A stretch of 59,948 nt of DNA from Candidatus Thiopontia autotrophica (GTDB taxonomy: Bacteria > Pseudomonadota > Gammaproteobacteria > GCF-002020875), in NCBI GenBank assembly GCA_014384675.1, contig JACNFK010000023.1, forward strand, positions 1-59,948, read 5' to 3'. The translations under genes and the position numbers were made by a program. Positions 43,492-59,948 of the stretch are shown one piece after another. The notes below the pieces were generated by a model. The model worked only from the letters and a program-made list of their open reading frames with translations. It was not told the DNA's origin and searched no databases. Every line of letters starts with the position of its first letter. Position 1 is the stretch's first letter.

Positions 43492-43520
43492 TTTTACAGA
43501 TAGCCAAGGTTGAAGAAAGG

Positions 43521-43546: not shown

Positions 43547-43554
43547 TATTAAAG

Positions 43555-43929
43555 ATGGAGGCCTCATTCTCTTCCGAGCGACGACTGCTTACCGCAGCCA
43601 ATTATAGCCAAGTCTTTGATAATAGTTGTTGCAAGGCGGGAGATGACTCTTTTCTCCTGCTGGCAAGGTTAAATAATCTGAACCATGCACGTCTTGGCCT
43701 GGTGATTGCAAAAAAAAAGCTAAAGCTCGCGGTTGACAGGAATCGTGTCAAACGGATCTCAAGAGAGAGCTTTCGTACCCTGCAGTGCGAGCTTTCAGGG
43801 ATTGATGTTATAGTGCTTTGCCGCTCTGGCGTGGTGAGGCTAGACAAAAAAGAGATTCGTCGCAGACTGGATCTTCTTTTCGATAAAATAAACAGATCAA
43901 AAAAACAGATACAGGCAGTTAGCGAATAA
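43555..43929 (+). CDS. rnpA: Ribonuclease P protein component
   Basis: A 124-aa basic protein. The N-terminus SSERRLLTAANYSQVF and the signature RLGLVIAKKKLKLAVDRNRVKRISRESFR (the RNR motif) identify RnpA, which binds the RNase P RNA for tRNA 5' maturation. The frame is open upstream from a TTG at 43510, but that stretch encodes the terminator hairpin; the ATG at 43555 is the family start, with a weak AAAG site. It is followed directly by yidC, 2 bp later. Confidence 0.93.
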   Translation: MEASFSSERRLLTAANYSQVFDNSCCKAGDDSFLLLARLNNLNHARLGLVIAKKKLKLAVDRNRVKRISRESFRTLQCELSGIDVIVLCRSGVVRLDKKEIRRRLDLLFDKINRSKKQIQAVSE

Positions 43930-43931
43930 TC

Positions 43932-45629
43932 ATGGACACTCAGAGACTCATCCTATTTGTTGCACTCTCTTTTCTCTCACTAATGTTGTGGGATGCGTGG
44001 CAACTGGAGCAGGGAGCCGGTCAACCACAGCTTTCTCAAGCAGAGCAGCAGCATGCACAGACATTTTCTGTTCCTGTAGCGCCTGAGGCGAGAACCGTTG
44101 ATATCGCTACAGGGGGAGGAGTTCCCAGGGTTTCTGCCCCTGAGGCTGAGCAGAGCGGTCAGCCTCGTGTGGTTGCCGAGAGTGAGATGAGAGCATCCGG
44201 CACACCCATTCATGTTGAGACAGACCTTCTGAGTGTGATAATAAACAGTGAGGGAGGAGATCTGCGACAGGTTGATCTGCGTCAGCACGGACAGGACTCA
44301 GAGCACAAAAATATCCCATTCCGCCTGATGAGTGAGGACGACCAGTTCTTTGTTGCGCAGACAGGAATTATGGGTGGAAAGGGGACAGTAAAGAGCAGCT
44401 ATCCTGATCATCACGCCATCTACGAGGTAGAGCAGACTAATTTTGTAATGGCTGGAGAGGAGGAGTTGCAGGTGCCAATGGTGTGGCACGATGATGCTAA
44501 TGGAATCAAGATTACAAAAACATACATATTCCATCACAACAGCTACAAGATTGATGTGGTCTACCATGTAGAAAATAGTGGCACCACAACCTGGAAGGGT
44601 GGACTCTATGGTCAGCTACTGAGAAATGATCAGACACCAGAGGCTGAAAACAGCTTTATCTATACATATACCGGCGGCGTTACCTACACCAATAGTGAAC
44701 ATTACCAGAAGGTAGATTTTGACGAGATGGCAAACAGAGCACCTATCCGCAATGCGGACAAAGGATGGGTTGCAATGATTCAGCACTACTTCCTTGCTGC
44801 GGTTGTTCCAGACTCAAATCTTAAGCCAACACTCTATACAGACCAACAGTCCAGTGGGCACTATGCCATTGGAGCAATTCTTCCAGTTGTCTCTGTGCCA
44901 GCAGGGGAGAGTGGAGATCTAGCAATACAGTTATACACCGGGCCCAAAGATCAGGAGCGTCTTGAGTTACTGGCCGAGGGGCTAGAGCTGACGGTCGATT
45001 ACGGTTGGCTGACATTCCTGGCGCAGCCGCTATTCTGGATTCTCAACGAGATTCAGGATGTGGTCAGCAATTGGGGGCTCTCTATTATTTTGCTTACCAT
45101 TCTGATTAAACTGGTGTTTTTCAAGCTGTCGGAGACAAGCTATCGCTCGATGGCGAGAATGCGCAAACTCTCGCCACGTCTTACATCACTAAAAGAGCGC
45201 TACGGAGATGATCGTCAAAAGATGAATGAGGCAATGATGAAGATCTACCGAGAGGAGAAGGTCAACCCCATGGGTGGCTGTCTCCCTATTCTGGTGCAGA
45301 TCCCCGTCTTTATTGCCCTCTACTGGGTGCTACTGGAGAGCGTTGAGATTCGTCAGGCACCATTCATGCTCTGGATTCAGGACCTCTCCGCCAAGGATCC
45401 GTACTATATTTTGCCGTTGTTGATGGGTGGCTCCATGTTGATTCAGCAGAGGCTTAATCCAGCACCAATAGACCCTATTCAACAGAAGGTGATGATGGTT
45501 CTGCCGGTTGTATTTACCGTCTTCTTTGCCTTCTTCCCGGCTGGCCTGGTTCTCTACTGGGTGGTGAATAATGTGATCTCCATATCCCAGCAGTGGTATA
45601 TAACCAAAAAGATCGAGGCCGCTGGATAA
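43932..45629 (+). CDS. yidC: Membrane protein insertase YidC
   Basis: A 565-aa inner-membrane protein. Its first transmembrane segment (about 5-22) is followed by the large periplasmic domain typical of Gram-negative YidC (about 25-350) and a C-terminal core of five helices with VKLVFFKLSETSYRSMARMRKLSP and NPMGGCLPILVQIPVFIALYWVL. It inserts membrane proteins with or without SecYEG. The usual yidD gene between rnpA and yidC is missing; only 2 bp separate them. Confidence 0.97.
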   Translation: MDTQRLILFVALSFLSLMLWDAWQLEQGAGQPQLSQAEQQHAQTFSVPVAPEARTVDIATGGGVPRVSAPEAEQSGQPRVVAESEMRASGTPIHVETDLLSVIINSEGGDLRQVDLRQHGQDSEHKNIPFRLMSEDDQFFVAQTGIMGGKGTVKSSYPDHHAIYEVEQTNFVMAGEEELQVPMVWHDDANGIKITKTYIFHHNSYKIDVVYHVENSGTTTWKGGLYGQLLRNDQTPEAENSFIYTYTGGVTYTNSEHYQKVDFDEMANRAPIRNADKGWVAMIQHYFLAAVVPDSNLKPTLYTDQQSSGHYAIGAILPVVSVPAGESGDLAIQLYTGPKDQERLELLAEGLELTVDYGWLTFLAQPLFWILNEIQDVVSNWGLSIILLTILIKLVFFKLSETSYRSMARMRKLSPRLTSLKERYGDDRQKMNEAMMKIYREEKVNPMGGCLPILVQIPVFIALYWVLLESVEIRQAPFMLWIQDLSAKDPYYILPLLMGGSMLIQQRLNPAPIDPIQQKVMMVLPVVFTVFFAFFPAGLVLYWVVNNVISISQQWYITKKIEAAG

Positions 45630-45645
45630 TCCCGGCGTATAGATC

Positions 45646-46986
45646 TTGGATGAGACCATCTGTGCCCAGGCGACTGCCAATGGTCGCGGTGGTGTGGGCA
45701 TACTCAGGGTATCGGGCGACAGTGTTCAACCAATAGCACTCTCAATTCTTGGGAAGGTCCCGGAACCAAGAGTAGCTGAGCTTCTCAGTTTTCTGGATGA
45801 GAAAGGGGATCCCATCGATCAGGGGATAGCCATCTTTTTCCCCAATCCAAACTCATTTACTGGTGATGATGTGCTTGAGCTGCAGGCGCATGGTGGTCCT
45901 GTGGTTATGGACCAGTTGATGCGTAGAGCACTGGAGTTGGGAGCACGAGCAGCACGTCCAGGAGAGTTTTCGGAACGTGCATTTCTCAATGGCAAAATGG
46001 ATCTGGTGCAGGCAGAGGCGATTGCAGACCTGATTGACAGCGCCTCGGAGCAGGCGGCACGCTCTGCCGTGCGCTCTCTTCAAGGCGCTTTCTCAACAGA
46101 GGTTCATCATCTGGTTGATGCGGTAACTGAGCTGCGAATTTATGTAGAGTCATCAATGGATTTTCCAGAGGAGGAGATAGACTTTCTGGCAGAAGGAGAC
46201 GTTGCAGGCAGGCTGCAGGCGATTGCGCAACAGCTGGAGCGGGTATTGGATAGTGCCAGAGAGGGGGTTTTGTTAAAAGAGGGGATGACTCTGGTCATTG
46301 CTGGCCGCCCCAATGCAGGCAAGTCCAGCCTGCTTAATGTGCTGTCTGGAAAAGAGTCAGCCATTGTGACCGAGATTCCAGGTACCACCAGAGATCTACT
46401 CAAGGAGCAGATTGATATAGATGGGCTTCCAATCCACATTATCGATACCGCAGGGCTGAGAGAGAGCGACGACCCAGTGGAGCAGGAGGGGATCCGTCGT
46501 GCCTGGCAAGAGATTGAAAAAGCGGACCAAGTACTTCTGCTGGTAGATGATCAAGATGGTCTTACAGAAGAGGATTGGCATGCACTGGATCAGATAGAGC
46601 ATATTCCTGTCACTATCGTGCGCACAAAAATAGATCTAACCGGGAAAGAGCCCGGGCTTCAGGGTGGAGAGCGAGATACAGAGATAGCGATCTCGGCAAA
46701 AAGTGGAGATGGAGTCAACCTGCTACGCACCTTTCTTAAGGATGCTGCAGGTTATCAGTCGGGTGGAGAGGGAACTTTTCTTGCCAGAAGGCGCCACCTT
46801 GATGCACTGCAACGTGCCCAACGTTCACTACAGCAGGGCAGGGAACAGCTGACAGAATTCCATGCCGGAGAACTGCTGGCTGAGGAGTTGCGCCACTCTC
46901 AGGAGGCGCTCTCCGAAATTACAGGAGAGTTCACCAGTGACGATCTTCTGGGAAAGATCTTTTCCTCCTTCTGTATCGGAAAGTAA
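45646..46986 (+). CDS. mnmE: tRNA modification GTPase MnmE
   Basis: A 446-aa protein. The tetrahydrofolate-binding N-terminal domain starts [22 protein letters not shown]. The G domain (about 215-375) has [20 protein letters not shown] and a TKID-type base motif (RTKIDL). The invariant C-terminal CIGK is present. With MnmG it modifies U34 of tRNAs. The start must be TTG at 45646: an in-frame TAG sits two codons upstream and no ATG or GTG is available. It is 16 bp after yidC, and the downstream nitrate gene is convergent. Confidence 0.95.
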
Positions 46987-47004
46987 TGGTATGAGATATC
47001 CGGG

Positions 47005-48930
47005 TTAACGAGCTTTGGTGCTCCTGTTGGTTGCAAGGTATTGGTTCAGTGCGCAACGGGCATCGGCGATCAGCTCATCCAGGCGGAAGGGGTGGTGGCG
47101 GGAGGGCTCTACCCCTAATGTTGTTGTTTCGGAGAGGCCACTCTCAATGGCATGCTCCATGAAACCCGGATTTTTCCAGAAGAAGGCGCCTGGCATGGTG
47201 GTTGGAATAACCAGAACATAGAACAGTGCACGACCAATGATGGAGGCCACAGCCACCATTACAGCCAGCAAAAGGAGAAGTGGGGCTGAATAGAGATCAA
47301 ACCAGGTCATGGTGAAGAGGAGCAACAGGGAGAAAGATATCAACCCATTGCGAAGCCAGTAACTGTAGCCATATGTGGTCTGCTGCTGGTAGATGGAGGC
47401 AGCTCCTTCATTTGTGGCGTGTTCCAGATCTAGCGAGTGAAAGAGTAGCCCAATCCCCTCCAGTGAGATCCCAAAGGCCATCACCATCGCCAGCAGTCGA
47501 CCCAGTTCTGGTGAGAGTTGATCCATGGCTAATGCAATCAGGAATAGCAGGAGTGCACCAAGAGAGAGAGCGGTTCCAACAAATGCAGCAGCAGTATGCC
47601 AGTGATCCCAGTAGGGGCGTGCGGGGATTCGGTAGAGCTTGATCATGTAGTATCCGCCCACTCCACCACCCAACAGGGAGAGCCCGATAAAAAGCTCCTG
47701 GATGAGAGATGGAAATAGCTCACCAAAAAGGAGTTCAGCGAGCGCAAAGAGGGTGAAACCGGCCAGCCCGATAGAGAAGAGGGTGACACCGGCGATCTCT
47801 CGACTCACCGGAGAGAGCTTCAGGTTATAGAACCCCCGGTAGAAGCGGTGTGGTTTTCCAAGATGCATATTGAGCTTAAAGAGACCAACACCCATTGTGA
47901 TCAGCAAGATCAGGGTAGTAGGAACCTGAACAGAAACATCTTCGAAGAGTGAAAATGGTGGGAGCGAAAACCATCTTCCCAGCGCAAGCAGCAAGAATGA
48001 TCCAATTACCATCTGGCTAGTGAGGGTAAAGATGACATGTCCATTTTCGTGGGAGCCGAGTAGCTTCTTCAGATTCCAGGAGCGAGTGAAGCCATGTTTT
48101 GGGTCGAGCTCAGGCTGAAATTGCTCTCCTGCTTTGCACCTTCTGTTTTTCTCGGGGCTCTCCTCTTGGTGATACTTCAGTGGTACTTGATCCAGGCGAT
48201 GCATCTCTCGGTGTGTGGTTCGGGTCTGCTGAAAACGGATATTGGGGTGGGTGATATCGGTTCGTGGGAAACCCGGGATTGTGGTTTGTGACTGTTCTCT
48301 CCCCTCCGGGATGTTTTCAATCACTCCAAAATCGAGCGCCTTGCCAAGGCAGGCAGAGACACAGGCCGGTTTCAGCCCAACCTCAAGTCGATCCACACAC
48401 ATATTGCACTTGGTCACCTGCCCTTTCACTGGATCCAACTGCGGTGCATTGTAGGGGCAGACCCAGGTGCAGTACCCACAACCAAAACAGATGTCGGGAT
48501 CCTGTAGCACCGCACCATATTCGGAAAACTTGGTATAGGCTCGGGTGGGGCACCCCTTGAGACAGACCGGGTTGTCACAGTGGTTGCAGGCCATCGAGAT
48601 ATTGAGGCGCTGAACATTGGGATAGCTTCCTCCCTCGACAAAACCGACTGAGCGGAAGGCAAGATGGGCGGGGTTATCATTTTTCTCCGAACAGGCCGAT
48701 TCACAGGCGTGACAGGCGATACAGTTGTCGGCATTGAAATAGAATCCATGCTGTTTGTAGCGGTTGGGGTTCTCTCCAATGGCCGAGTCACCATTGATGT
48801 TGAGGCTCTTGTTGTGGAGTGGGTCTCCCTCCTTAGCCAGCTCAATTTGCTTGCCGTAGCGATTGGTTGATTCCGAAACGGGATCGCTGAGTAGTGCGTA
48901 GTCAGGTTCAAATTCTCTGCGCTGAAACAT
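47005..48930 (-). CDS. Fused DmsB/DmsC-like subunit: iron-sulfur protein plus quinol-binding membrane anchor
   Basis: A 641-aa protein. Residues about 60-225 are a DmsB-type ferredoxin with four cysteine groups (CIACHACESAC from Cys70; CNHCDNPVCLKGC; CFGCGYCTWVC; CNMC with ACVSAC), predicting four [4Fe-4S] clusters. From about 300 to 585 there are about eight hydrophobic helices like DmsC/NrfD anchors. There is no signal peptide, so the clusters face the cytoplasm. It is the last gene of the nirBD-nasA run, 10 bp after nasA, with an AGGAGT site. It most likely moves electrons from quinol to the nitrate reductase, replacing the ferredoxin or flavoprotein used by usual assimilatory enzymes. That role is inferred from domains and context. 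Confidence 0.82.
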   Translation of the reverse strand: MFQRREFEPDYALLSDPVSESTNRYGKQIELAKEGDPLHNKSLNINGDSAIGENPNRYKQHGFYFNADNCIACHACESACSEKNDNPAHLAFRSVGFVEGGSYPNVQRLNISMACNHCDNPVCLKGCPTRAYTKFSEYGAVLQDPDICFGCGYCTWVCPYNAPQLDPVKGQVTKCNMCVDRLEVGLKPACVSACLGKALDFGVIENIPEGREQSQTTIPGFPRTDITHPNIRFQQTRTTHREMHRLDQVPLKYHQEESPEKNRRCKAGEQFQPELDPKHGFTRSWNLKKLLGSHENGHVIFTLTSQMVIGSFLLLALGRWFSLPPFSLFEDVSVQVPTTLILLITMGVGLFKLNMHLGKPHRFYRGFYNLKLSPVSREIAGVTLFSIGLAGFTLFALAELLFGELFPSLIQELFIGLSLLGGGVGGYYMIKLYRIPARPYWDHWHTAAAFVGTALSLGALLLFLIALAMDQLSPELGRLLAMVMAFGISLEGIGLLFHSLDLEHATNEGAASIYQQQTTYGYSYWLRNGLISFSLLLLFTMTWFDLYSAPLLLLLAVMVAVASIIGRALFYVLVIPTTMPGAFFWKNPGFMEHAIESGLSETTTLGVEPSRHHPFRLDELIADARCALNQYLATNRSTKAR

Positions 48931-48940
48931 CGGAGTACTC

Positions 48941-51187
48941 CTAAAAGGCTCTCATTTCCATACTGAGACAAGCAGCACTCGGCTGATCCATGATCTTTTC
49001 AATCCGGATTGCAGACTGCTTGTAGGCGGGCTGGCGGGAGTGTGGATCCAGCAGGCCGAGAGTGAGGCGGTTGGCACAGTCATGGAAGTGGAAGGGGAGA
49101 AAGAGCATGTTCCTGGGAACCCGATGGGGGGGTTGCGCCATGACGATGGCATCGGATCGACGGGAGATCAGGCGAATATATTCACCCTGAGCTATTCCTC
49201 TCTCTCTACAGAGATCCGGGTTGATCTCGACAAATGGGATTGGGCTGAACTTGTTGTTGTTTCCGATCTTTCCGGTCTTGGTACGGCCATGCCAGTGCGC
49301 TACCAGACGGCCGGTGTTGAGCCAGAGTGGAAATTTCTCATCCGGCACCTCGTTATTGTCGATAAAGGGGAGGGGGATCAGTTTGGCGCGCCCATCCGGG
49401 TACTGGAAGCTCTGAGGGTCGGTGTAGAGCCGACGGCCACCGTGAGGAGGCTCTTTTCCCTCAGACCTCTCATTTTCAGTATAGGGCCACTGAACTCCTC
49501 GTTGTGCTTCAAGTAGTGGATGGTCCATCCCGGAGATATCGGCAAGCCGTCCTTTTGAGAGGCTGGCCATCTCGGCAAAGATATCCGAGGCACTCTCTGG
49601 AAAGTGGACGGATCGTCTCACTGGTTTACCGCTCTCTTTCTGCCTGGATTGATAGTTCTCCTGATTGAATCGTTCCGCCATCCGGTTGAAAATCCAGAGA
49701 TCGGGTTTGGCCTCTCCCGGAGGATCCATGATTGGGGTGACCCGGTTGATTCGTCGCTCGGTATTGGTCATCACTCCATCCTTTTCGGCCCAGGTTCCCG
49801 CTGGGAGGTAGAGGTGGGCATATTGTGTACTCTCACTATCCTGATAACAGTCCTGAACGATGCAGAGTTCCAGTTTCTCCATCGCCTTGCGAACCCGGGC
49901 ACTATTGGGGAGTGAGGTAAGCGGATTGGTTGCAATCAGCCAAATCCCCTTGATCTCACCGCTCTCAATGGCATGGTAGATATCGGTCTGGTACATTCCC
50001 CGCTTGGTTGGCAAGAACTCCGGATCAATACCCCAGTAGGAGGCAATCTCTTCTCGATCCTCCCGGTTCTCCAGATAGCGGTAGTTGGGAAGGCCGGAGC
50101 AGGAGGACCACTCTCGAGTTCCCATTGCATTGCACTGTCCGGTAATGGAGAGGCTGGTTCCGCCCGGCTTTCCGATGTTGCCGGTAATCAGTGCAAGGTT
50201 GTTGATTCCCACCACACCATCCGAGCCATGTGTCGACTGATTGATTCCCATGGTCCAGATCTGCATCGCAGCGGTTGATTTTGCAAAGATCCGTGCCACC
50301 TGACGAATGGTGTCCTCATCGATGCCACAGAGCCTTGATGCAGTGGTCGGATCATAGCGAGCTACCTCGGCACGCAGTGACTCGATCCCCGTGGTGTTCT
50401 TTTCAATATAGTCTTGATTCTCCCAGCCATTAGAAAGGATCACATGCATCAGTGCATTCTGCAGCACCACATCGGTTCCCGGGGTAATAGGGAGGTGGAT
50501 ATGGGCATTCTGCGCCAGCATGGTGACGCGTGGATCGACCACGATCAGTGGAAAACCGCGCTTCTCCTGCGCCTCTTTCATCCGCCAGTAGATGATGGGG
50601 TGCTGCTCCGGCAGGTTGGAGCCCCACGCGATCAGGCAGTCGGTATGATCGAAATCCTCATAACAGCCGGGGGGGCCATCGGAGCCAAAAGAGCGCTTGT
50701 AGCCGGAGACGGCCGATGCCATGCAGAGGGTGGTATTGCCATCATAGTTGTTGGTTCCGATCAGTCCACGAGTCAGCTTGCCGAGGGTATAGAACTCCTC
50801 GGTCAGCAGCTGCCCGGTGGAGACGACCGCTACAGAGTCTCGGCCATGGGCTCTCTGGATCCTGAGTATCTCTTGATGTGCATTGTCCAGGGCACTCTCC
50901 CAGCTGGTTGGCTCCCACGGCTGGTGCCAGTGGTTACGAATCAGTGGTACCGTGCCACGACCAGAGGATTCAAACAGCTCATGCTCGAAGATCCCCTTGA
51001 GACAGAGCTTCCCTCGGTTGACATCGGCATCAGCGACCCCCCGGGAGCTGACCGCCTTCCCCTCCTGGTTGAGCCCAACCTCAATCGAGCAGCCAGTGGA
51101 GCAGTAACCACAGGTGGCATATTTCCACTCCACCACCCTCTTATCGACAATGGTGATCGGGTTTTTATTGGATCTTCCAAACAGCAT
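48941..51187 (-). CDS. nasA: Assimilatory nitrate reductase catalytic subunit (NasA/NarB type)
   Basis: A 748-aa molybdopterin enzyme. The N-terminal [4Fe-4S] ligands are Cys26, Cys29, Cys33 and Cys62 (ATCGYCSTGC and KLCLKG). The molybdenum-ligating cysteine is Cys155 in TLCMASAVSGY, as in NarB/NasA. There is no Tat signal, so it is cytoplasmic. It reduces nitrate to nitrite for NirBD. At 748 aa it lacks the C-terminal BFD-like [2Fe-2S] domain of enterobacterial NasA and matches the shorter NarB size. The ATG at 51185-51187 lies 24 bp after nirD. The neighbouring DmsBC-like fusion is the likely electron donor. Confidence 0.93.
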   Translation of the reverse strand: MLFGRSNKNPITIVDKRVVEWKYATCGYCSTGCSIEVGLNQEGKAVSSRGVADADVNRGKLCLKGIFEHELFESSGRGTVPLIRNHWHQPWEPTSWESALDNAHQEILRIQRAHGRDSVAVVSTGQLLTEEFYTLGKLTRGLIGTNNYDGNTTLCMASAVSGYKRSFGSDGPPGCYEDFDHTDCLIAWGSNLPEQHPIIYWRMKEAQEKRGFPLIVVDPRVTMLAQNAHIHLPITPGTDVVLQNALMHVILSNGWENQDYIEKNTTGIESLRAEVARYDPTTASRLCGIDEDTIRQVARIFAKSTAAMQIWTMGINQSTHGSDGVVGINNLALITGNIGKPGGTSLSITGQCNAMGTREWSSCSGLPNYRYLENREDREEIASYWGIDPEFLPTKRGMYQTDIYHAIESGEIKGIWLIATNPLTSLPNSARVRKAMEKLELCIVQDCYQDSESTQYAHLYLPAGTWAEKDGVMTNTERRINRVTPIMDPPGEAKPDLWIFNRMAERFNQENYQSRQKESGKPVRRSVHFPESASDIFAEMASLSKGRLADISGMDHPLLEAQRGVQWPYTENERSEGKEPPHGGRRLYTDPQSFQYPDGRAKLIPLPFIDNNEVPDEKFPLWLNTGRLVAHWHGRTKTGKIGNNNKFSPIPFVEINPDLCRERGIAQGEYIRLISRRSDAIVMAQPPHRVPRNMLFLPFHFHDCANRLTLGLLDPHSRQPAYKQSAIRIEKIMDQPSAACLSMEMRAF

Positions 51188-51211
51188 AAGATTTCTCTTC
51201 AGAGGATGGGA

Positions 51212-51529
51212 TTAACGGATCAGGTAGAGCCTCTCTCCCTCCACCTCAATCCGGTAGGTTGGAGTGCAGCCATGATCCGGACCGGTGGCCTCGCCACTCT
51301 CCAGGTCGATAACCCAGTTGTGAAGGGGACAGGTGACCCGGTTGCCGTGAACGATTCCCTGAGAGAGCGGCCCCTTGCGGTGGGGACACTGGTCACTGAC
51401 AGCGAAGAAGAGGTCCTCCGAGCTGCGGAAGATTGCAATATCCCCCTCATCACTCTTGACCACTCTTGATCCGAGGCGGGGGATATCCGAGCGTAGGCCA
51501 ATTTCGATTTTTTCAATAACGGCTTCCAT
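51212..51529 (-). CDS. nirD: Nitrite reductase small subunit with Rieske centre
   Basis: A 105-aa Rieske-fold protein. Unlike E. coli NirD, which I recall has lost its cluster ligands, this one keeps them: Cys48 and His50 (QCPHRKGPL), and Cys67 and His70 (TCPLHNW), so a [2Fe-2S] centre is expected. It partners NirB in NADH-dependent reduction of nitrite to ammonium. AAGGA lies 6 nt before the ATG. It is separated from nirB by a MITE-like insertion of about 150 bp but lies on the same strand. Confidence 0.9.
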   Translation of the reverse strand: MEAVIEKIEIGLRSDIPRLGSRVVKSDEGDIAIFRSSEDLFFAVSDQCPHRKGPLSQGIVHGNRVTCPLHNWVIDLESGEATGPDHGCTPTYRIEVEGERLYLIR

Positions 51530-51580
51530 GATTCATCCTTGTATATTGTCTCTCTTTGATCTATCTGATTCTGAATTGAG

Positions 51581-51747
51581 CCTTAGGGCCTGTCCCAAAA
51601 TAACTTGTGCAGATTGCACCGTAATTTCGTTCGCTTTCGAGGCGTGGCAAGGGGCGCATAGCCGGGCTATGTAATCCTTGTCACAACAAAGAAAGCGGGG
51701 GAAAGGGCAAGCAAAATGTGCATGTTATTTCGGGACAGTTCCTTAGG
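51581..51747. mobile_element. MITE-like non-coding element between nirB and nirD
   Basis: A 153-bp element (51588-51740) flanked on both sides by CCTTAGG (51581-51587 and 51741-51747), a likely 7-bp target duplication. Its ends are imperfect inverted repeats: the left end reads CTGTCCCAAAATAAC and the right end, complemented, CTGTCCCGAAATAAC. A short palindrome CATAGCC-G-GGCTATG lies inside. There is no coding capacity. The right CCTTAGG contains the nirB stop codon, so insertion left NirB intact. CCTTAGG is nearly palindromic, so part of it could belong to the inverted repeat. Confidence 0.7.
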
Positions 51748-54256
51748 AGGCCTGTGCCAGAGTTTGCTGGTGCTTAATATTGGCAAGCGGCTGAAATTCT
51801 CTGCTGGCATCTTGATCCTCGGAGTGATGCCTCCAGGGGTCCACTTGTGCATACTGTTGAGAGATCCGGAAACGTTCGGCCAACGCCGCTCTCTGAGATG
51901 CATCCCCCACAATCTTCTCCTTAATGGCCTGCAGACCAATCCGTTCCACCCACGGTGCGGTGCGCTCCAGATAGTGGGCATCCTCCCGATAGAGTTGACA
52001 GAAGGCGGCACAGTATTCCAAAACCTCCTCTTCACTCTCGACCTTGGCCAGAAGGTCGGTGACACGGACCTTGATCCCGCCATTACCACCAACATGGAGT
52101 TCATACCCGGAGTCGACACAGACCACTCCAAAATCCTTGATCGTCGCCTCCGCGCAGTTTCTGGGACAGGCGGAGACTGCCAGCTTGAACTTGTGTGGCA
52201 TCCACGATCCCCAGGTCAACTGTTCAAGTTTGACTCCCAGATCGGTCGAATCCTGGGTTCCGAATCGGCACCACTGACTCCCTACACAGGTCTTTACGGT
52301 TCGCATAGCCTTGCCGTAGGCGTGGCCCGAGACAAAACCGGCCTGATTGAGATCTTTCCAGATGAGCGGCAGCTCCTCTTTCTGAATTCCAAAGAGATCG
52401 ATCCGCTGACCACCGGTTACCTTGATCTCGGGGACATTGAATCTGTCCGCAACATCAGCAATGGCACGGAGTTCATCAGGTGTGGTCATTCCGCCCCACA
52501 TCCGTGGAACCACTGAGTAGCTTCCATCCTTCTGAATGTTTCCATGGGCCCGTTCGTTGATAAAACGGGACTGGGGATCATCATACTCACCAGGCCATTG
52601 GGCAAGAAGATAGTAGTTGATGGTGGGGCGGCAGCTATGGCATCCATCCCGATTTCCCCACTCCAGAAAATGATAAACATCCTGGTGGCTCTTTAGCTGA
52701 TGTTCACGAATGGCCTTGCGAACGACATCATGGGAGTGGGTAGTGCAGCCACAGAGCGATTTCTGGGTTGGGGTCTTCTCGTATCCCTCACCAACGGTAG
52801 AGGCGAGGATCTGTTCAACTAGTGCAGTACAGGATCCACAGGATGCTGAGGCCTTGGTATGGCTGCGCACCTCATCCAGGGTAAAAAGGTTGTTGGCACT
52901 GATGGCCTGAATCACATCTCCCTTACAGATCCCATTACAGCCACACACCTCAGCACTATCGGGTAGATCCATGATGTTCTGACTGCCATGGCCAGAGTCT
53001 CCTAATTGTGCCTGGCCAAAGAGCAGAGTATCGCGAATCTCGCCGACATCGGTCTGATCCCGCATCATCTGAAAATACTTCGCCCCATCAATGGTGTCAC
53101 CGTAGAGCACAGCCCCCTGGATGCGATTGTCTGAGAGGACCAATTTCTTGTAGATGCCACGACCCGGATCCTGAAATAGTAGTACGTCCTGGTTCTCCTG
53201 CTCCTTGAACTGGCCGGCAGAAAAGAGATCTATACCGGTTACCTTGAGTTTGGTTGAGGTCACCGAGCCCCTGTAGATTCCGATGCCATAGTTGGCCAGG
53301 TGGTTGGCCACCACCTTGGACTGCTCAAACAGTGGGGCAACGAGACCATAGGTGGTGTTGCGATGTTCTACACATTCGCCGACGGCATAGATTTTTGGGT
53401 CATAGCTCTGCATAGTGTCACTGACCACAACTCCTCGATTACAGTAGATGCCGGACTCCTTGGCCAGCTGGATCGAGGGTCGAATCCCAACCGCCATTAC
53501 CACCAGGTCAGCAGGGACCTCCAGGCCACTTGTGAAACGGACAGCACGAACCCGAGTGCCTGCATTCTCATCGTCACTTGTAGGGTGTCCCAAAATGGCT
53601 TCGGTCTCGGTGTTGAGCAGGAAGGTAAGGCCATCCTCTTCCAGTTTCCTCTGCAGAAGGTCTGAGGATGCACGATCCAGTTGGTTGTCCATGACCACAT
53701 CGGAGCGGTGGACAATGGTCACCTTCATCCCCTGCTTCTGCAGGCCACTGGCAGCCTCAAGTCCCAGCAGGCCACCACCGATGACAACAGCATGTCGATA
53801 GTGGTTGGAGGCATCAACCATTGACTCCACATCTTCAACGGTGCGGAACCCAATCACTCCATCCAGATCATTGCCGGGAACCGGCAGAATAAAGGGGTGA
53901 GACCCGGTCGCTAGCAGCAGACGGTCGTAGTGGATCTGTTCTCCATTTGCCAACTCCACTCTGCGCCGGGCACGATGAATTTTTGTGGCAGCAACCCCAG
54001 AGATTAGTTCAATCCCATGCTCCTCATACCACTCCGGCGTGTTAATGATGATCTCATCAAAGGACTTTTCTCCTGCCAGTAGTGGAGAGAGCATGATTCG
54101 GTTGTAGTTGGGGTGGGGCTCCTCACCAATGACGGTGATCTGATACTGGCCGGAAGAGATCTTCAGCAGCTCTTCCACAGTTCTCATGCCGGCCATTCCG
54201 TTGCCGATCACTACCAGGCGATTTTTGCTGAGGGGGGTTGGTGATGGGCTGCTCAT
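51743..54256 (-). CDS. nirB: NADH-dependent nitrite reductase large subunit
   Basis: An 837-aa protein. The N-terminal FAD/NADH domain has GNGMAGMRTVEELL and GGGLLGLEAASGL, followed by BFD-like [2Fe-2S] segments (CGCNGICKGD, CGSCTALVEQIL) and the C-terminal siroheme/[4Fe-4S] domain with C-x5-C in CVGSQWC (about residue 656) and C-x3-C in CPRNC (about 695). It reduces nitrite to ammonium with NirD in the cytoplasm. The ATG at 54256 is used; an upstream TTG at 54265 has poorer spacing. A sigma-54 promoter and NtrC dyad lie directly upstream, so the gene starts its own nitrogen-controlled transcript. Confidence 0.96.
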   Translation of the reverse strand: MSSPSPTPLSKNRLVVIGNGMAGMRTVEELLKISSGQYQITVIGEEPHPNYNRIMLSPLLAGEKSFDEIIINTPEWYEEHGIELISGVAATKIHRARRRVELANGEQIHYDRLLLATGSHPFILPVPGNDLDGVIGFRTVEDVESMVDASNHYRHAVVIGGGLLGLEAASGLQKQGMKVTIVHRSDVVMDNQLDRASSDLLQRKLEEDGLTFLLNTETEAILGHPTSDDENAGTRVRAVRFTSGLEVPADLVVMAVGIRPSIQLAKESGIYCNRGVVVSDTMQSYDPKIYAVGECVEHRNTTYGLVAPLFEQSKVVANHLANYGIGIYRGSVTSTKLKVTGIDLFSAGQFKEQENQDVLLFQDPGRGIYKKLVLSDNRIQGAVLYGDTIDGAKYFQMMRDQTDVGEIRDTLLFGQAQLGDSGHGSQNIMDLPDSAEVCGCNGICKGDVIQAISANNLFTLDEVRSHTKASASCGSCTALVEQILASTVGEGYEKTPTQKSLCGCTTHSHDVVRKAIREHQLKSHQDVYHFLEWGNRDGCHSCRPTINYYLLAQWPGEYDDPQSRFINERAHGNIQKDGSYSVVPRMWGGMTTPDELRAIADVADRFNVPEIKVTGGQRIDLFGIQKEELPLIWKDLNQAGFVSGHAYGKAMRTVKTCVGSQWCRFGTQDSTDLGVKLEQLTWGSWMPHKFKLAVSACPRNCAEATIKDFGVVCVDSGYELHVGGNGGIKVRVTDLLAKVESEEEVLEYCAAFCQLYREDAHYLERTAPWVERIGLQAIKEKIVGDASQRAALAERFRISQQYAQVDPWRHHSEDQDASREFQPLANIKHQQTLAQAS

Positions 54257-54298
54257 TGAGTTCAATCCTTGGTTGATACAAACGTGTACTTAACTTTA

Positions 54299-54314
54299 AG
54301 CAATGAACGTGCCA
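54299..54314 (-). promoter_or_regulatory. Sigma-54 promoter of nirB
   Basis: Minus strand: TGGCACG (54308-54314), TTCA, TTGCT (54299-54303), a full consensus -24/-12 element. The predicted transcript start lies about 30 nt before the nirB ATG. Confidence 0.9.
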
Positions 54315-54326
54315 AACGCTTTGTAT

Positions 54327-54341
54327 ATAGATAACATGTTG
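54327..54341. promoter_or_regulatory. 15-bp motif shared by the nirB and glnK promoters
   Basis: ATAGATAACATGTTG, found again with one change at 58177-58191 upstream of glnK. Both copies lie between a sigma-54 promoter and its NtrC dyad. It partly fits the IHF consensus on the plus strand (YAA-N4-TTGATW), so a DNA-bending site is one reading. Confidence 0.45.
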
Positions 54342-54389
54342 TAATCTCAATCATTAATGCGCAAAGTCTATGGTTGAAGAATATGGGTG

Positions 54390-54406
54390 TGCGCCAATTT
54401 GGTGCT
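54390..54406 (-). promoter_or_regulatory. NtrC-type enhancer of nirB
   Basis: TGCGCC-AATTT-GGTGCT: each half differs from the consensus TGCACC/GGTGCA by one base, and the 5-bp spacer is right. It is about 75-90 bp upstream of the nirB -24 element. Confidence 0.7.
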
Positions 54407-54526
54407 CCGAGTGGGGTCAATTCTCTAGCATTGACCAGATATTGAGCTGAACAATGAGGCTCTCTCGATACCTCATTAAGGCCACTGTTTAGGAGCCTCT
54501 GAAAAAGCTTAATGGGATGGGGGTTT

Positions 54527-54581
54527 GGGGGAAGGGCTCTATAGGTGTTGTTGTAACATACTGAACCATAACCCTTCCCCC
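54527..54581. repeat. Long hairpin in the kinase-nirB gap
   Basis: GGGGGAAGGG (54527-54536) and CCCTTCCCCC (54572-54581) form a 10-bp perfect stem with a 35-nt loop. No T-run follows. It could slow read-through from the kinase gene toward nirB. Together with the next hairpin and the nirB control sites it accounts for the 385-bp gap 54257-54641, which has no gene. Confidence 0.5.
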
Positions 54582-54603
54582 ATAGAATAACTTGTAAGGG
54601 AGA

Positions 54604-54634
54604 TCTGATTGGGTCACGAAGTGACTTAATCAGA
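54604..54634 (-). terminator. Hairpin just after the kinase gene
   Basis: TCTGATT, one mismatch, GTCAC, loop GAA, GTGAC, one mismatch, AATCAGA. It starts 8 nt after the kinase stop. It lacks a U-tract, so it may be a weak or factor-dependent terminator or an RNA-stabilising stem. Confidence 0.5.
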
Positions 54635-54641
54635 GCTTTCT

Positions 54642-56381
54642 TTACGTACCAAGCAATGTCAGCAAGATGAGATTGGCCAGTGCCAGAACCAATGCGAGTG
54701 TCCGCCAGAATACCAGTGGATCACGCTCAATCAGTGGCTGGAACGACTCCTGCTGAAAGGATGGGTTGGGCTGCCTGAGATCTATCGGGATCTCGGACAG
54801 CGCCGGATAACGATCGACTGGTGAGGGTGAGAGAGCCTTGCGTAATGTACTGCTGATCCAATCGGGCAGATCATCCCGATAGTGGTGCGGGGCAGTGAAA
54901 TGGCGGGAGTGAATTTTCTGCACCGCCTTCCTGGTCGAGGGGTGGTCACCCAGATCCCCATAGGGGAGTTTTCCGCATAGCATCTCATAGAGAATAACCG
55001 CCAGTGAGAACTGGTCGGAGAGGGGGCTACCCGCATTTCCCTGGAAGAGCTCGGGTGCTGTATAGTTTCGGGTACTGTGTATTCGTGAATAGTCGACAGG
55101 AGAGCGAATCTCCTCAACCCCCGAGATGCGTGTGGATCCAAAATCGATGATTTTGACCGTTCCATGGGTATCGATCATGATATTTTCCGGCTTCAGGTCT
55201 CGATGGACCATCTCCATCCGGTGGAAGGTGCGCATTCCATGAATGATCTGTTCGGCAATCTGGCGCACCTCAACCAGAGAGGGGTTGGGGTGATCGCTCA
55301 TCCACTGTCTGAGTGTGATCCCATTAATATACTCAGTGGCGGTATAGAGAAAGCGGCGCCGCTCCCGGATATCATGGATCTTGAGAACATGGTTGGAGTG
55401 GAGGCGTAGCCCAATCCACTCCTCGTGTTGAAAGGTCTCCAGGTAGGTTGAGTCATCCTCAAAATTGACGGATGGGGTCTTGATCACAACCTCACCAGAG
55501 GATGGATCACTCTTTTCTGCTTTTAGATCCAGTGCAAGATAGACTTGTGTACGGGGGCTGGAGTGGAGCTCTCGAAGAATCCTGTAACCATCAATCTCCA
55601 TTCCAGGGGAGAGATCGGGAGGAAAAGGGAGTGACTGGAGTTTCTGGTAGTGGCTCTGATCATCCTCTTCCGGGAGCTGGTTGATGAGCAGAAACTGACA
55701 GCTCAGATTGTCATTACTGCCACTCTCCAGCGCCTGTTGGCAGATCTTCTCTGTAAGGGGCTGGGGAGAGTCCAAATCCTGATGGATAAGATGATTTATC
55801 TCCCGGTCGGAGAGAAAATCATGAATGCCATCGGTACAGAGCAGAAAGGCATCTCCTGCACGGACTGCTATCCGGTGCACATCCACCTCAATATGGGTAT
55901 TGATCCCCATGGCGCGCCCCAGATACTCTTTCTCGCCACGCCCGCAGACCCGGTGGTCACGAGTAATCTGTTCCAGTTGCCCTTCGCGCCAATGGTAGAT
56001 TCGGCTGTCTCCCACATGGAAGATCGAGGCAGTTGAGGATTTGATCACCAGCGTTGAGAGGGTTGTGACCAGCTCCCCCTCTCTGGAGAAGAGCTGTTGA
56101 CCTTGTCCGAGTAGCCAGTGGTTCAGGGCGGAGAAGATCTTGCTTGCCGAGGTGCTAACAGTCCATGAATCGGGGGTGCTGTAGTAGTCGGAGATAAAGC
56201 CCTGAACAGAGGCACTGCTTGCATCAGCAGCACCGGCACTGGAGCTGACACCATCGGCAATGGCAGCTACCACCCCTTTGCTGAAGAGCTGTGCTCCATC
56301 AGGGATGGCGTAGTTGCAGGCATCATCATTGGCCGGCTTCTGGCCGGCCAATGAGTGTTGTCCTGCCGAGATGTATTCCAA
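54642..56381 (-). CDS. PP2C phosphatase-Ser/Thr kinase fusion in the nitrate operon
   Basis: A 579-aa protein. The N-terminal PP2C domain (about 1-235) has all metal aspartates: AIADGVSSS, HVGDSRIYHW, LLCTDGIHDFL and GSNDNLSC. The kinase domain (about 265-530) has the VVIK lysine, HRDLKPENIM and IIDFGS, but the glycine loop (ELHSSPRTQVYLA) lacks the usual GxGxxG. A C-terminal hydrophobic helix (about 558-578) anchors it to the membrane. The TTG start lies just after the narK stop, with a GAGG site 11 nt upstream. The same order (transporter, kinase, nirB, nirD, reductase) occurs, as I recall, in Pseudomonas aeruginosa PA1783-PA1779, so a role in nitrate assimilation is likely; its target is unknown. 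Confidence 0.87.
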   Translation of the reverse strand: MEYISAGQHSLAGQKPANDDACNYAIPDGAQLFSKGVVAAIADGVSSSAGAADASSASVQGFISDYYSTPDSWTVSTSASKIFSALNHWLLGQGQQLFSREGELVTTLSTLVIKSSTASIFHVGDSRIYHWREGQLEQITRDHRVCGRGEKEYLGRAMGINTHIEVDVHRIAVRAGDAFLLCTDGIHDFLSDREINHLIHQDLDSPQPLTEKICQQALESGSNDNLSCQFLLINQLPEEDDQSHYQKLQSLPFPPDLSPGMEIDGYRILRELHSSPRTQVYLALDLKAEKSDPSSGEVVIKTPSVNFEDDSTYLETFQHEEWIGLRLHSNHVLKIHDIRERRRFLYTATEYINGITLRQWMSDHPNPSLVEVRQIAEQIIHGMRTFHRMEMVHRDLKPENIMIDTHGTVKIIDFGSTRISGVEEIRSPVDYSRIHSTRNYTAPELFQGNAGSPLSDQFSLAVILYEMLCGKLPYGDLGDHPSTRKAVQKIHSRHFTAPHHYRDDLPDWISSTLRKALSPSPVDRYPALSEIPIDLRQPNPSFQQESFQPLIERDPLVFWRTLALVLALANLILLTLLGT

Positions 56382-56382
56382 A

Positions 56383-57852
56383 CTATTTCACCTCAATCAG
56401 CTCAACTGTGCCGTCCGGCAGCACCTCGGCCATATGTCCTTCGGGCTCATCAAGAAAGAGCTGAATCAGAACCAGAATCACCAGGGCAGATACGGCAATG
56501 GTGAGGAAGAAGAGGGCGGGTTCAACAAAGGAGAGCACGGTGAGGAAGATCACGCCACCTACATTACCATAGGCTCCTGTCATTCCAGCAATCTGTCCGG
56601 TCATGCGCCGTTTGACGAGTGGCACCATTGCAAATACCGCCCCTTCACCGGCCTGAACAAAGAAAGAGCAGGCCATGGTGGCGGCTACAGCGACCGGTAG
56701 AGCCCAACTGGCATCAATATGGCTTAGCGCGAAGTAGCCAATGGAGAGCCCTAGCAGCAGGATTGAGAGGGTCCGTTTGCGTCCAAAGCGATCGCTGATC
56801 AATCCACCACTGGGGCGAGCCACCAGGTTCATGAATGCAAAACCGGAGGCCACCATTCCAGCCAGCACCGGGGTAATCTCAAAAGTATCGAGGAAGAAGA
56901 GGGGAAGCATGGAGACGACGGCCAGCTCGGATCCGAAGGTGACTAGATAGGCAAGATCCAGCATTGCAACCTGCTTGAATGAGTAGCGGTCAATCTCGGG
57001 CAGATCCCCCTTTAGCACATGACGGTTGACCTGTAGTACCTTGAAGCTCTGGATCAGATAGATGGAACAGAGCAGACCATAGAGGAGTAGAGCAACCCCA
57101 TCACCATAGAGCCCCAGATTAGCCGGACTCAGCTTCCAGTTTAGCACCGCCAGAGCGCCATACATTGGAAGATTCATCAACAGGTAGAGAATAAGGTCTC
57201 CCTTGCTGGAGACCTCCATAGCTCCGGATTTTTTGGGCTTGAAGTAGGTGGATCCTTTCGGGGTATTGCTGACATTGAGGTAATAGATGAAGGAGTAGAG
57301 AATGGCGACGAGGCCGGTAGATCCGATGGCATAGCGCCAGCCATCCTCACCACCAAACAGCAGCGCAAGAGTGGGAAGGGTCAGGGCTGCAGCGGCAGAG
57401 CCGAAGTTGCCCCATCCGCCATAGATCCCCTCTGCAACACCGACCTCTCGGGCGGGGAACCACTCGCTGACCATACGGATACCAATCACAAAGCCGGCGC
57501 CAACAAATCCCATCAGAAAACGGGTGACTGCCAGCTGCTCAAAGCTGTCGGACAGTGCATAAAAAAAACAGAGGACTCCGGAGAGCGCCAGCAGGATGGA
57601 GTAGACGATCTTGGGGCCAAAGTGGTCCACCAGCATTCCAATGATGATTCTGGCAGGGATGGTGAGAGCCACGTTAAGAATCAGCAGGGTCTTCACCTCC
57701 TGTGGGGTGAGGCCAAACTGTTCACGCATGACCGCCATCAGTGGCGCATGGTTGAACCAGATCACAAAGGTGATAAAGAAGGCGATCCAGCTGAGATGGA
57801 GAACTTTGGTCTTCCCGCTGAAAGAGAGCAGATTGATACTTCCTGTGTTCAT
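56383..57852 (-). CDS. Nitrate/nitrite transporter, MFS NarK/NasA type
   Basis: A 489-aa major-facilitator protein with about twelve helices. The nitrate-signature regions are present: FGFAN-like segment [15 protein letters not shown] (first signature) and [21 protein letters not shown] (second signature), plus the early [22 protein letters not shown]-type loop. It imports nitrate for assimilation. The ATG at 57852 has a GGAG site about 8 nt upstream; 33 further codons are open upstream but unconserved. It lies just downstream of a sigma-54 promoter and starts the narK-kinase transcript. Confidence 0.93.
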
Positions 57853-57914
57853 GGCTTGTCTCCGGAGATCTGATCTTGATTGAGAGAGAGGCTTCCCCCT
57901 TATGGACTGGAAAC

Positions 57915-57930
57915 AGCAATAACCATGCCA
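57915..57930 (-). promoter_or_regulatory. Sigma-54 promoter of the nitrate transporter gene
   Basis: Minus strand: TGGCAT (57925-57930), GGTTA, TTGCT (57915-57919); one base differs from TGGCAC-N5-TTGC. The predicted start is about 50 nt before the ATG. Its likely enhancers are the NtrC-type sites at 58048-58137. Confidence 0.78.
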
Positions 57931-58047
57931 TTGTTGCAGAGAAACTTGCAATTACATGTTTTTCAAGTAGTTAGTAGCTCTGCCCAAGCAGATTGAAAGC
58001 GGAGAGAAGAGTATCGTCTGCACAATGATGATCGGAAAACAACAGCC

Positions 58048-58213: not shown

Positions 58214-58229
58214 TGGCACGGTGGTTGCA
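58214..58229 (+). promoter_or_regulatory. Sigma-54 promoter of glnK-amtB
   Basis: TGGCACG (58214-58220), GTGG, TTGCA (58225-58229): a perfect -24/-12 element about 60 nt before the glnK ATG. NtrC-type dyads are 75-125 bp upstream. Confidence 0.92.
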
Positions 58230-58269: not shown

Positions 58270-58629
<360 letters not shown>

Positions 58630-58659: not shown

Positions 58660-59934
58660 ATGGAAAATCAAATTTTTGAACTGCAGTATGCAATGGACAC
58701 CTTCTATTTTCTGGTGTCTGGTGCATTGGTGATGTGGATGGCAGCAGGCTTTGCGATGTTGGAGGCGGGGCTGGTACGCTCAAAAAATACCACCGAGATT
58801 CTAACCAAGAATGTGGCGCTCTTTGCCATTGCCTGCATCATGTATCTGGTGATGGGGTATGAGCTGATGTATGGCGGGGGCGGAGGCACCAACTACTTCC
58901 TCTCCAGTATCATGGGTGGTGATAGTCTGGTAGATGATGCACTGAAAGCATCTGCAGAGAACGGTTTTGGTGGGGATTCTGTCTACTCCGGTGCTTCTGA
59001 CTTCTTTTTCCAGGTAGTCTTTGTGGCAACTGCGATGTCAATTGTCTCTGGTGCAGTTGCAGAGCGCATGAAGCTCTGGGCATTTCTTGCTTTTGCAGTG
59101 GTGATGACCGGGGTTATCTATCCCATGGAAGGGTCGTGGACCTGGGGCGGTCAGGAGGTATTTGGAATGTTCGCCCTGGAGTTCAGTGACTTTGCAGGCT
59201 CCGGTATTGTCCATATGGCGGGCGCAGCAGCGGCACTGGCTGGCGTACTGTTGTTAGGTGCTCGAAAGGGCAAGTATGGCAAGAACGGTGAGGTCAGGGC
59301 TATTCCAGGTGCAAATATGCCATTGGCGACACTCGGAACATTTATCCTCTGGATGGGCTGGTTTGGATTTAATGGCGGATCTGTATTGAAGCTGGGCGAT
59401 ATCGCTAGTGCCCACTCTGTTGCAATGGTATTTCTGAACACCAATGCGGCAGCAGCTGGCGGTGCAATTGGTGCCCTAATTATTGCCCGCATGCTGTTTG
59501 GCAAGGCTGATCTGACCATGTTGCTCAATGGTGCGCTGGCTGGGCTGGTTGCGATTACCGCAGGCCCGGATACACCGACACCGTTGATGGCAACACTGTT
59601 TGGCATGGTTGCTGGTGTAATCGTAGTCTTCTCAATTATCTCTCTGGACAAGATGAGAATCGATGATCCTGTGGGCGCAATCTCTGTCCACGGAGTAGTC
59701 GGCTTCTTTGGTCTGATGATAGTACCGCTGACAAATGATGGCGCAACATTTATGGGCCAGTTGGTGGGCGCAGGGGTCATCTTTGGATGGGTCTTTGGCT
59801 CTAGCCTGGTAGTCTGGGCGCTGATCAAGATGCTTATGGGAATTCGCATCAGTGAGGAGGAGGAAGAGGCTGGTGCAGACTTCACCGAGTGTGGTCTGGA
59901 GGCATATCCAGAGTTCACCAATACGGGCAAATAA
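58660..59934 (+). CDS. amtB: Ammonium transporter Amt
   Basis: A 424-aa channel protein with eleven predicted helices. The Amt signature DFAGSGIVHMAGAAAALAG contains the first of the twin pore histidines, and ISVHGVVGFFGLM the second. The N-terminus (MENQIFELQYAMDTFYF) shows no cleavable signal, unlike E. coli AmtB, so it resembles Amt forms without a leader. It conducts ammonium into the cell under nitrogen limitation and is gated by GlnK. AAAGGAAA lies before the ATG. The remaining 14 bases of the window hold nothing. Confidence 0.95.
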   Translation: MENQIFELQYAMDTFYFLVSGALVMWMAAGFAMLEAGLVRSKNTTEILTKNVALFAIACIMYLVMGYELMYGGGGGTNYFLSSIMGGDSLVDDALKASAENGFGGDSVYSGASDFFFQVVFVATAMSIVSGAVAERMKLWAFLAFAVVMTGVIYPMEGSWTWGGQEVFGMFALEFSDFAGSGIVHMAGAAAALAGVLLLGARKGKYGKNGEVRAIPGANMPLATLGTFILWMGWFGFNGGSVLKLGDIASAHSVAMVFLNTNAAAAGGAIGALIIARMLFGKADLTMLLNGALAGLVAITAGPDTPTPLMATLFGMVAGVIVVFSIISLDKMRIDDPVGAISVHGVVGFFGLMIVPLTNDGATFMGQLVGAGVIFGWVFGSSLVVWALIKMLMGIRISEEEEEAGADFTECGLEAYPEFTNTGK

Positions 59935-59948
59935 CCTCCCAAGTCGCC

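Follow-up and report, generated by a model that had tools for sequence, protein, structure and literature searches.

How electrons reach the nitrate reductase encoded in the nitrogen-assimilation region of Candidatus Thiopontia autotrophica is the question raised by this locus. Assimilatory nitrate reductases draw on ferredoxin, flavodoxin or NADH, and a 2020 survey stated that members of the NasA/NapA/AioA clade never come with four-cluster subunits or membrane anchors (PMC7331816). In the window (the whole stretch of 59,948 nucleotides that was analysed), the gene for a catalytic subunit (748 aa) is followed after 10 nt by the gene for a fused iron-sulfur and membrane-anchor protein (641 aa). 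Our computational analysis suggested that the two genes likely encode one membrane-attached, cytoplasm-facing quinol:nitrate oxidoreductase for nitrogen assimilation, with its activity, the complex and the quinol donor inferred in the absence of biochemistry. A conserved quinol-fed form would contradict the survey's statement on this clade.

Table 1. Features of the nitrate-assimilation region and the adjoining glnK-amtB genes.
Feature	Coordinates	Strand	Basis
Fusion subunit, 641 aa	47005..48930	-	Pfam Fer4_11 and DmsC; AF2 fold matches
Catalytic Mo-bisPGD subunit, 748 aa	48941..51187	-	Pfam domains, active site, tree
nirD, nitrite reductase small subunit	51212..51529	-	NCBIfam TIGR02378 above cut-off
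nirB, NADH nitrite reductase large subunit (siroheme)	51743..54265	-	NCBIfam TIGR02374, 922 bits vs cut-off 578
Sigma-54 promoter ahead of nirB (TGGCACGTTCATTGCT, exact match)	54299..54314	-	
Fused PP2C phosphatase and Ser-Thr kinase within the nitrate cluster	54642..56381	-	Pfam
narK-type nitrate/nitrite MFS transporter	56383..57951	-	NCBIfam TIGR00886 above cut-off
Sigma-54 promoter ahead of glnK (TGGCACGGTGGTTGCA, exact match)	58214..58229	+	
GlnK-type PII protein	58291..58629	+	Recognised from its own sequence, no family search
AmtB-type ammonium transporter	58660..59934	+	Recognised from its own sequence, no family search

Architecture and predicted orientation of the fusion subunit

The preliminary description of the locus placed a 641-aa DmsB/DmsC fusion 10 bp after a catalytic subunit without the [2Fe-2S] domain; this was confirmed by the open reading frames, Pfam domains, transmembrane helices and cysteines. 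The fusion consists of an N-terminal extension, a DmsB-like ferredoxin for four [4Fe-4S] clusters (residues about 60-207), a linker and a DmsC-like eight-helix anchor (about 292-578). Fer4_11 was located at residues 111-203 and DmsC (PF04976) at 292-573, and each domain was present in all 61 fusions searched. Eight transmembrane helices were indicated by family-averaged hydropathy and by the AF2 model, in which their pLDDT was mostly >90; the iron-sulfur half of the model was of low confidence and was left out of the interpretation.

Sixteen cysteines in four groups were invariant across 78 homologues, as were H356 and E378, the equivalents of DmsC H65 and E87, which are listed among the quinone-site residues of DmsC (PMC8076601). 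The modelled transmembrane part resembled ActC (Z 22) and PsrC, which is menaquinone-bound (2vpw_C, Z 17). Sequence and fold led us to infer, without quinol-binding data, that the fusion is a four-cluster ferredoxin joined to an NrfD/DmsC anchor with a quinol site.

The claim that neither protein has an export signal also held, as no Tat-like motif was found in 78 fusions or 63 reductases (141 proteins). The loops on the iron-sulfur side of the fusion contained 12.7 K+R, against 1.0 on the opposite side, and the bias had the same direction in 78/78 sequences. E. coli DmsC showed the opposite distribution (3 vs 8), whereas SoeC-like controls (10-17 vs 0-2) showed the same pattern as the fusion. 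The iron-sulfur side is predicted from these loop charges, rather than measured, to lie in the cytoplasm, which is the reverse of E. coli DmsC but agrees with SoeC.

The module resembles DmsABC, the E. coli DMSO reductase, and related complex iron-sulfur molybdoenzymes in its Mo-bisPGD subunit, four-cluster iron-sulfur protein and eight-helix DmsC anchor with H65 and E87 kept, but differs in that B and C form one polypeptide, the catalytic subunit is of the Nap/Nas type rather than DmsA, no Tat signal is present and the charge bias points to an inverted orientation. SoeABC, a sulfite:quinone oxidoreductase, was proposed to face the cytoplasm with an inverted NrfD-like anchor (PMC8076601). The same loop-charge pattern is predicted for the module, but the catalytic subunit and substrate of SoeABC are different, electron flow is expected to be opposite, and SoeB and SoeC are separate proteins.

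Identity of the catalytic subunit

Pfam analysis of the catalytic subunit identified Molybdop_Fe4S4, Molybdopterin and Molydop_binding domains with one N-terminal [4Fe-4S] site, and found no Fer2_BFD domain in its 748 aa. The active site contains C155-M156 and R358, as in NapA/NasA, and not the C-H of formate dehydrogenase. In the tree, which lacked Bacillus NasC and cyanobacterial NarB, the catalytic subunits formed a separate clade (support 100/100) that grouped with NapA and was not nested in the sampled NasA clade. The preliminary label "NarB-like" therefore needs correction: the enzyme belongs to a separate Nap/Nas lineage nearer to NapA than to conventional NasA.

No NCBIfam model cut-off was reached by the catalytic subunit, whose top score was to formate dehydrogenase alpha. 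The scores were 452 bits for the NasC model (cut-off 1100), 458 bits for the haloarchaeal NasA model (cut-off 1000), 379 and 395 bits for the NapA models (cut-offs 930 and 904) and 44.6 bits for the narG model (cut-off 1084), the last of which rules out a NarG-type subunit. An ordinary proteobacterial NasA was ruled out by the separate clade grouping with NapA, and a SoeA-type subunit by the grouping with NapA/NasA. A periplasmic enzyme of the DmsA clade was ruled out by the Nap/Nas-type placement, the lack of a Tat signal and the cytoplasmic charge bias, and membership in periplasmic NapA proper by the Tat absence and the NapA scores below cut-off.

Among known nitrate reductases, NasA, NarB and NasC share with the module a cytoplasmic location, a Cys-Met active site and clusters with nirBD and narK; the module differs in lacking the BFD domain, in having a conserved membrane partner, in its separate clade and in missing the NCBIfam cut-offs. 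In the tree, NapA is the closest lineage, joined at a 100/100 node, and the best solved-structure match was Desulfovibrio NapA, but the module has no Tat signal, and its context is nirBD-narK with a nitrogen-type promoter rather than a nap operon. NarGHI, the respiratory nitrate reductase, also reduces nitrate in the cytoplasm with quinol, and an assimilatory role has been suggested for it in sponge symbionts that oxidise methane (PMC6474228). NarGHI combines a NarG-type catalytic subunit with a haem-b NarI anchor, in which it differs from the module, and this genome encodes NarGHJI separately.

Conservation and genomic context of the pair

The fusion and the short reductase form a conserved module. 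Among 274 gammaproteobacterial genomes, 45 carried the fusion, 46 the short reductase and 44 both (Fisher p 3e-47, over 36 families). Of the named loci, 74 contained both genes and could be examined, and in every one of them the two were adjacent, mostly with a gap of <200 nt; adjacency was also seen in another class of the phylum. In one genome (G020) the two genes lay on different contigs. The fusion and reductase trees were correlated (r 0.77, Mantel p 0.001). Chance pairing can be excluded because fusions 58-70% identical, found in many families, adjoin the same reductase in every case for which flanking DNA is available. The near one-to-one co-occurrence also led us to reject the fusion as a subunit of another molybdoenzyme, the case that the preliminary description had named as refuting its proposal. 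No full-length fusion was found on plasmids in 72,556 records.

Loss of BFD-type enzymes, whose co-occurrence had been proposed as a check, does not always accompany the module. Several carriers also keep a conventional NasA, some in one operon, so replacement of BFD-type NasA everywhere was rejected; in those genomes a separate function of the module is possible.

In sulfur oxidisers, methanotrophs and animal symbionts alike, the pair lies in clusters with nirB, nirD and narK. The gene dsrA was present in 35 of the 45 fusion carriers, compared with 15 of 69 genomes with conventional NasA only, which associates the module computationally with sulfur oxidisers, without correction for phylogeny. 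None of the eight class-sample genomes with PF02461 (PMO/AMO) carried the fusion. Methanotrophs do carry it among the named loci, and the methanotroph part of the energetic argument given below therefore rests on those loci only.

As expected of an assimilatory type, the module is clustered with genes for nitrite reductase (nirB, nirD) and nitrate transport (narK) and with sigma-54 sites. The only two exact sigma-54 matches in the window lie upstream of nirB and glnK, and a one-mismatch site (57915-57930) precedes the probable ATG of narK, whose true start is likely within the called open reading frame, near 57850. Among 43 related loci, 30 carried a sigma-54 site (<=1 mismatch) ahead of nirB, compared with 27 of 1600 controls, and nitrogen control is therefore indicated. 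No other NasA-type enzyme was found in the genome, which is 98.6% complete; NarGHJI and two Tat-type NapA are present for respiration.

Proposed electron path and alternative explanations

Computational support for the proposed oxidoreductase comes from the gene fusion, the conserved pairing, the cluster and quinol residues, the lack of export signals, the charge bias, the nitrogen-type promoters and the association with sulfur oxidisers, whereas complex formation, the electron path, nitrate as substrate, the quinol donor and the energetic rationale are all inferred. In the proposed mechanism, quinol would be oxidised at the DmsC-like part of the fusion, and electrons would travel along the four [4Fe-4S] clusters of the DmsB-like half until they reach the catalytic [4Fe-4S] cluster and Mo-bisPGD, where the NapA/NasA-type subunit would reduce nitrate to nitrite. 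NADH-dependent NirBD would then reduce nitrite to ammonium. The protons of both half-reactions, at the quinol site and at the nitrate site, are probably exchanged on the cytoplasmic side, so that energy would not be conserved. The benefit would be that electrons entering at the quinone level, such as those from sulfide, need not be pushed uphill to NADH or ferredoxin, two per nitrate.

Quinol-driven, membrane-bound nitrate assimilation on the cytoplasmic side had been the main inference of the preliminary description. Although no biochemical data bear on it, a number of independent tests support it: the conservation of the pair, the DmsC quinol residues, the flipped charge bias, the sigma-54 promoters and the absence of another NasA-type enzyme.

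The module, which occurs in many sulfur and methane oxidisers, appears to be little described and likely to use electrons from the quinol pool instead of costlier ferredoxin or NADH, an inference without biochemical data. If it is quinol-fed, such bacteria, among them symbionts that nourish their animal hosts, could assimilate nitrate without uphill electron transport to NADH. Such clusters tend to appear in genome papers as "nasA plus nirBD" (e.g. PMC10734462), and the electron donor would therefore be misassigned wherever the quinol-fed form occurs. No description of the fusion was found in the literature searched, which is weak evidence of novelty, since subscription journals were mostly outside the search. 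In a bolder reading, which we consider improbable, a third Nap/Nas lineage acquired a fused, inverted DmsBC whose anchor pumps protons outward; nitrate assimilation by lithotrophs would then be both NADH-sparing and energy-conserving.

Alternatively, the same quinol-linked nitrate reductase might serve mainly to dispose of excess electrons or, with NirBD, to produce ammonium in a dissimilatory manner. Quinol coupling without energy conservation would fit an overflow valve, and a second, conventional NasA stands beside the module in some genomes. This explanation is unlikely: nirB, narK and glnK are preceded by sigma-54 promoters of the kind seen in nitrogen control, and for respiration the genome is already equipped with NarGHJI and with two NapA of the Tat type. 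Besides the module it has no NasA-type enzyme. The electron-sink role raised as a possibility in the preliminary description remains conjecture.

It is also possible, but doubtful, that the enzyme has a different substrate or works in reverse, for example by oxidising a small compound and feeding the quinone pool, as SoeABC does with sulfite. The top NCBIfam score to formate dehydrogenase alpha with no family cut-off reached, the SoeC-like orientation and the separate NasA in the same operon of some genomes are compatible with this. Against it are the C-M active site with the nitrate reductase Arg in place of the formate dehydrogenase C-H, the tree grouping and best structural match with NapA, and the fact that this is the sole NasA-type enzyme in a genome bearing nirBD-narK.

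A soluble ferredoxin or flavodoxin donor as in cyanobacterial NarB, with the fusion a mere anchor or part of another enzyme, is very unlikely: other NasA-type enzymes use soluble donors and the search for ferredoxin genes in the genome was not exhaustive, but the near one-to-one co-occurrence and adjacency of the two genes and the full conservation of the 16 Cys and the quinol-site His/Glu argue against it, and a mere anchor is disfavoured because these residues would be needless.

An Rfam scan of positions 46900-59948 gave no match. The PP2C/kinase fusion gene also adjoins narK in many related loci. In addition, a GlnK homologue lies close to the fusion gene in two related loci (L111 and L127), and an AmtB homologue in L111, with a weaker match in L127.

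Gene order and probable nitrogen control at the locus

The catalytic subunit (the short reductase, 748 aa) and the ferredoxin-anchor protein (the fusion, 641 aa) are encoded on the minus strand with a spacing of 10 nt, and no BFD-like [2Fe-2S] domain was found in the short reductase by domain search. The ORF positions, spacing, BFD-less reductase and ferredoxin-DmsC fusion of the preliminary description were thus upheld. None of the NCBIfam models attained its cut-off for either protein. The two genes close a same-strand series of narK, PP2C/kinase, nirB, nirD, short reductase and fusion; GlnK-type and AmtB-type genes lie on the opposite strand.

Features of the nitrate cluster
Feature	Position	Strand	Remarks
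Fusion	47005-48930	(-)	Fer4_11 at 111-203 (four-cluster ferredoxin); complete DmsC domain at 292-573
Short reductase	48941-51187	(-)	three molybdopterin-oxidoreductase domains
Sigma-54 site, exact	54299-54314	(-)	just upstream of nirB
PP2C phosphatase fused to Ser/Thr kinase	54642-56381	(-)	beside narK in many related nitrate clusters
Sigma-54 site, one mismatch	57915-57930	(-)	ahead of narK
Sigma-54 site, exact	58214-58229	(+)	just upstream of glnK

The nirB and glnK sites were the only two exact matches in the window to the sigma-54 consensus used (TGGCACN5TTGCW). Sites with at most one mismatch were located upstream of nirB in 30 of 43 related loci, versus 27 of 1600 control windows taken from the same loci. 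These promoters are predicted from sequence, and are consistent with nitrogen control.

As identified by eye, one flank of the nitrate cluster is mnmE (dnaA/dnaN/recF/rnpA/yidC side) and the other is the mnmG/rsmG/parAB side (39293-47005, and L049:7300-11586 in a related locus), and the cluster probably adjoins the replication origin.

Conservation of the pair and identity of the catalytic subunit

Among 274 genomes drawn evenly from Gammaproteobacteria (the class sample), the full fusion was present in 45, the short reductase in 46, and both in 44. The exceptions were a fusion match without its first 22 residues (genome G191) and partial reductase matches (G276 and G072), for which contig ends are the probable, unverified cause. 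Short reductases in this sample were 66-80% identical, with frames of 726-782 aa in nearly all, and other Nas-type matches were 30-40% identical and mostly 880-1050 aa. In the 80 named loci obtained by scanning GTDB contigs, the short reductase was immediately upstream of the fusion in all 74 containing both, mostly with a gap below 200 nt; in one genome, G020, the two are on separate contigs. Protein trees of fusion and short reductase were correlated (r 0.77, Mantel p 0.001).

Carriers of the fusion among the named loci include symbionts of Lamellibrachia, Escarpia, lucinids and other invertebrates, Methylococcales (among them Crenothrix and a Bathymodiolus methanotroph), Thiotrichaceae, Sedimenticola, Cocleimonas, Cycloclasticus, Sulfuricella, Thiobacillus and Rhodocyclales. 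The fusion was rare in a phylum-wide sample (6/398 genomes), and it adjoins the short reductase also in two genomes from another class of the phylum. None of five congeneric genomes (G001-G005) carried either gene; the nitrate cluster is therefore patchy within the genus, with gain versus loss unresolved.

By alignment, the Desulfovibrio NapA counterparts of Mo ligand Cys155, the adjacent Met156 and Arg358 are Cys140, Met141 and Arg354; formate dehydrogenases carry Cys-His at this site, without the Arg. In a tree excluding Bacillus NasC and cyanobacterial NarB, the short reductases formed one clade (100/100 support) apart from conventional proteobacterial NasA, and another 100/100 node united this clade with NapA plus one actinobacterial sequence. 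Because of this grouping, the label "assimilatory" is justified by gene context and regulation, not by sequence, and the NarB-like, assimilatory NasA identity proposed in the preliminary description held only in part.

Predicted membrane orientation and quinol site

No Tat-like motif was found in 78 fusions and 63 reductases. Loop Lys+Arg in the fusions averaged 12.7 on the Fe-S side versus 1.0 on the opposite side, with the same sense in 78/78. The bias is reversed in E. coli DmsC (3 vs 8), whose partners face the periplasm, and has the same sense in five SoeC-like proteins (10-17 vs 0-2), anchors that are expected to be inverted. By the positive-inside rule, and without a topology measurement, the Fe-S side of the fusion is likely to be in the cytoplasm. 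The earlier claims that neither protein has an export signal and that the pair acts on the cytoplasmic side were therefore sustained, the latter as a prediction.

The 16 cysteines of the four clusters were invariant across 78 fusion sequences, as were His356 and Glu378, which align with His65 and Glu87 of E. coli DmsC (MG1655 record); the quinone-site residues of DmsC are Ser62, His65, Ser82 and Glu87 (PMC8076601). The Fe-S half of the fusion model was unreliable. For the predicted membrane part, structural matches included the alternative complex III subunit ActC (Z 22) and menaquinone-bound PsrC (Z 17), but fold alone cannot fix the anchor family because cytochrome bd chains score 16-20 in the same list; the sequence match to DmsC assigns it.

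A 2020 survey found no member with four-cluster or membrane-anchor subunits in the NasA/NasC, AioA, NapA clade (PMC7331816), a statement at odds with the present pairing if the two proteins form one enzyme. The relevant sections of a review of NrfD subunits contain no such nitrate reductase, and there SoeC is the anchor regarded as inverted (PMC8076601). In genome papers, comparable clusters are labelled "nasA with nirBD" (PMC10734462; PMC4725956), with the fusion not established in those organisms. No description of the module was found in the literature searched, which left out most subscription journals; within that scope, its known parts seem to be combined and oriented in a way that has not been described before.

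Sulfur oxidation, alternative explanations and related loci

The source genome (1.58 Mb, 98.6% complete) has NarGHJI, two Tat-type NapA and dsrA fragments, and no NasA-type enzyme was found in it besides the short reductase; its BFD domains occur only in NirB and one separate 85-aa frame. In the class sample, dsrA was present in 35/45 carriers versus 58/229 non-carriers (p 5e-11) and 15/69 genomes that carry conventional NasA alone (p 3e-9), the last group being approximate (E-value limit 1e-110) and the statistics uncorrected for phylogeny. Sulfide delivers electrons at the quinone level, and their use to form NADH consumes proton-motive force, which a quinol-fed reductase would spare, as inferred from established bioenergetics.

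There is no biochemical evidence for quinol-fed nitrate reduction, and the case is wholly computational. A soluble electron donor for the short reductase is not excluded, nor is an electron-overflow role for the module; the electron sink suggested in the preliminary description is thus neither supported nor ruled out. The co-occurrence check proposed there gave a near one-to-one association of short reductase and fusion, but several carriers also have conventional NasA. Since both enzymes are kept in these carriers, they probably serve different conditions.

Conventional NasA and the short reductase share a cluster in six of the named loci (L043, at 3631-8514, L057, L079, L081, L083 and L118), and retention of both is unexplained. 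An ATPase gene and a second gene directly 3' of the fusion (L043:11086-14352) resemble, by eye, a RavA-ViaA pair; pairs of this type are linked with Fe-S respiratory complexes. In genome G039, the short reductase frame is seemingly broken near residue 155, and a truncated-haemoglobin-like gene, identified by eye, lies between nirB and nirD (L044:12011-12379).
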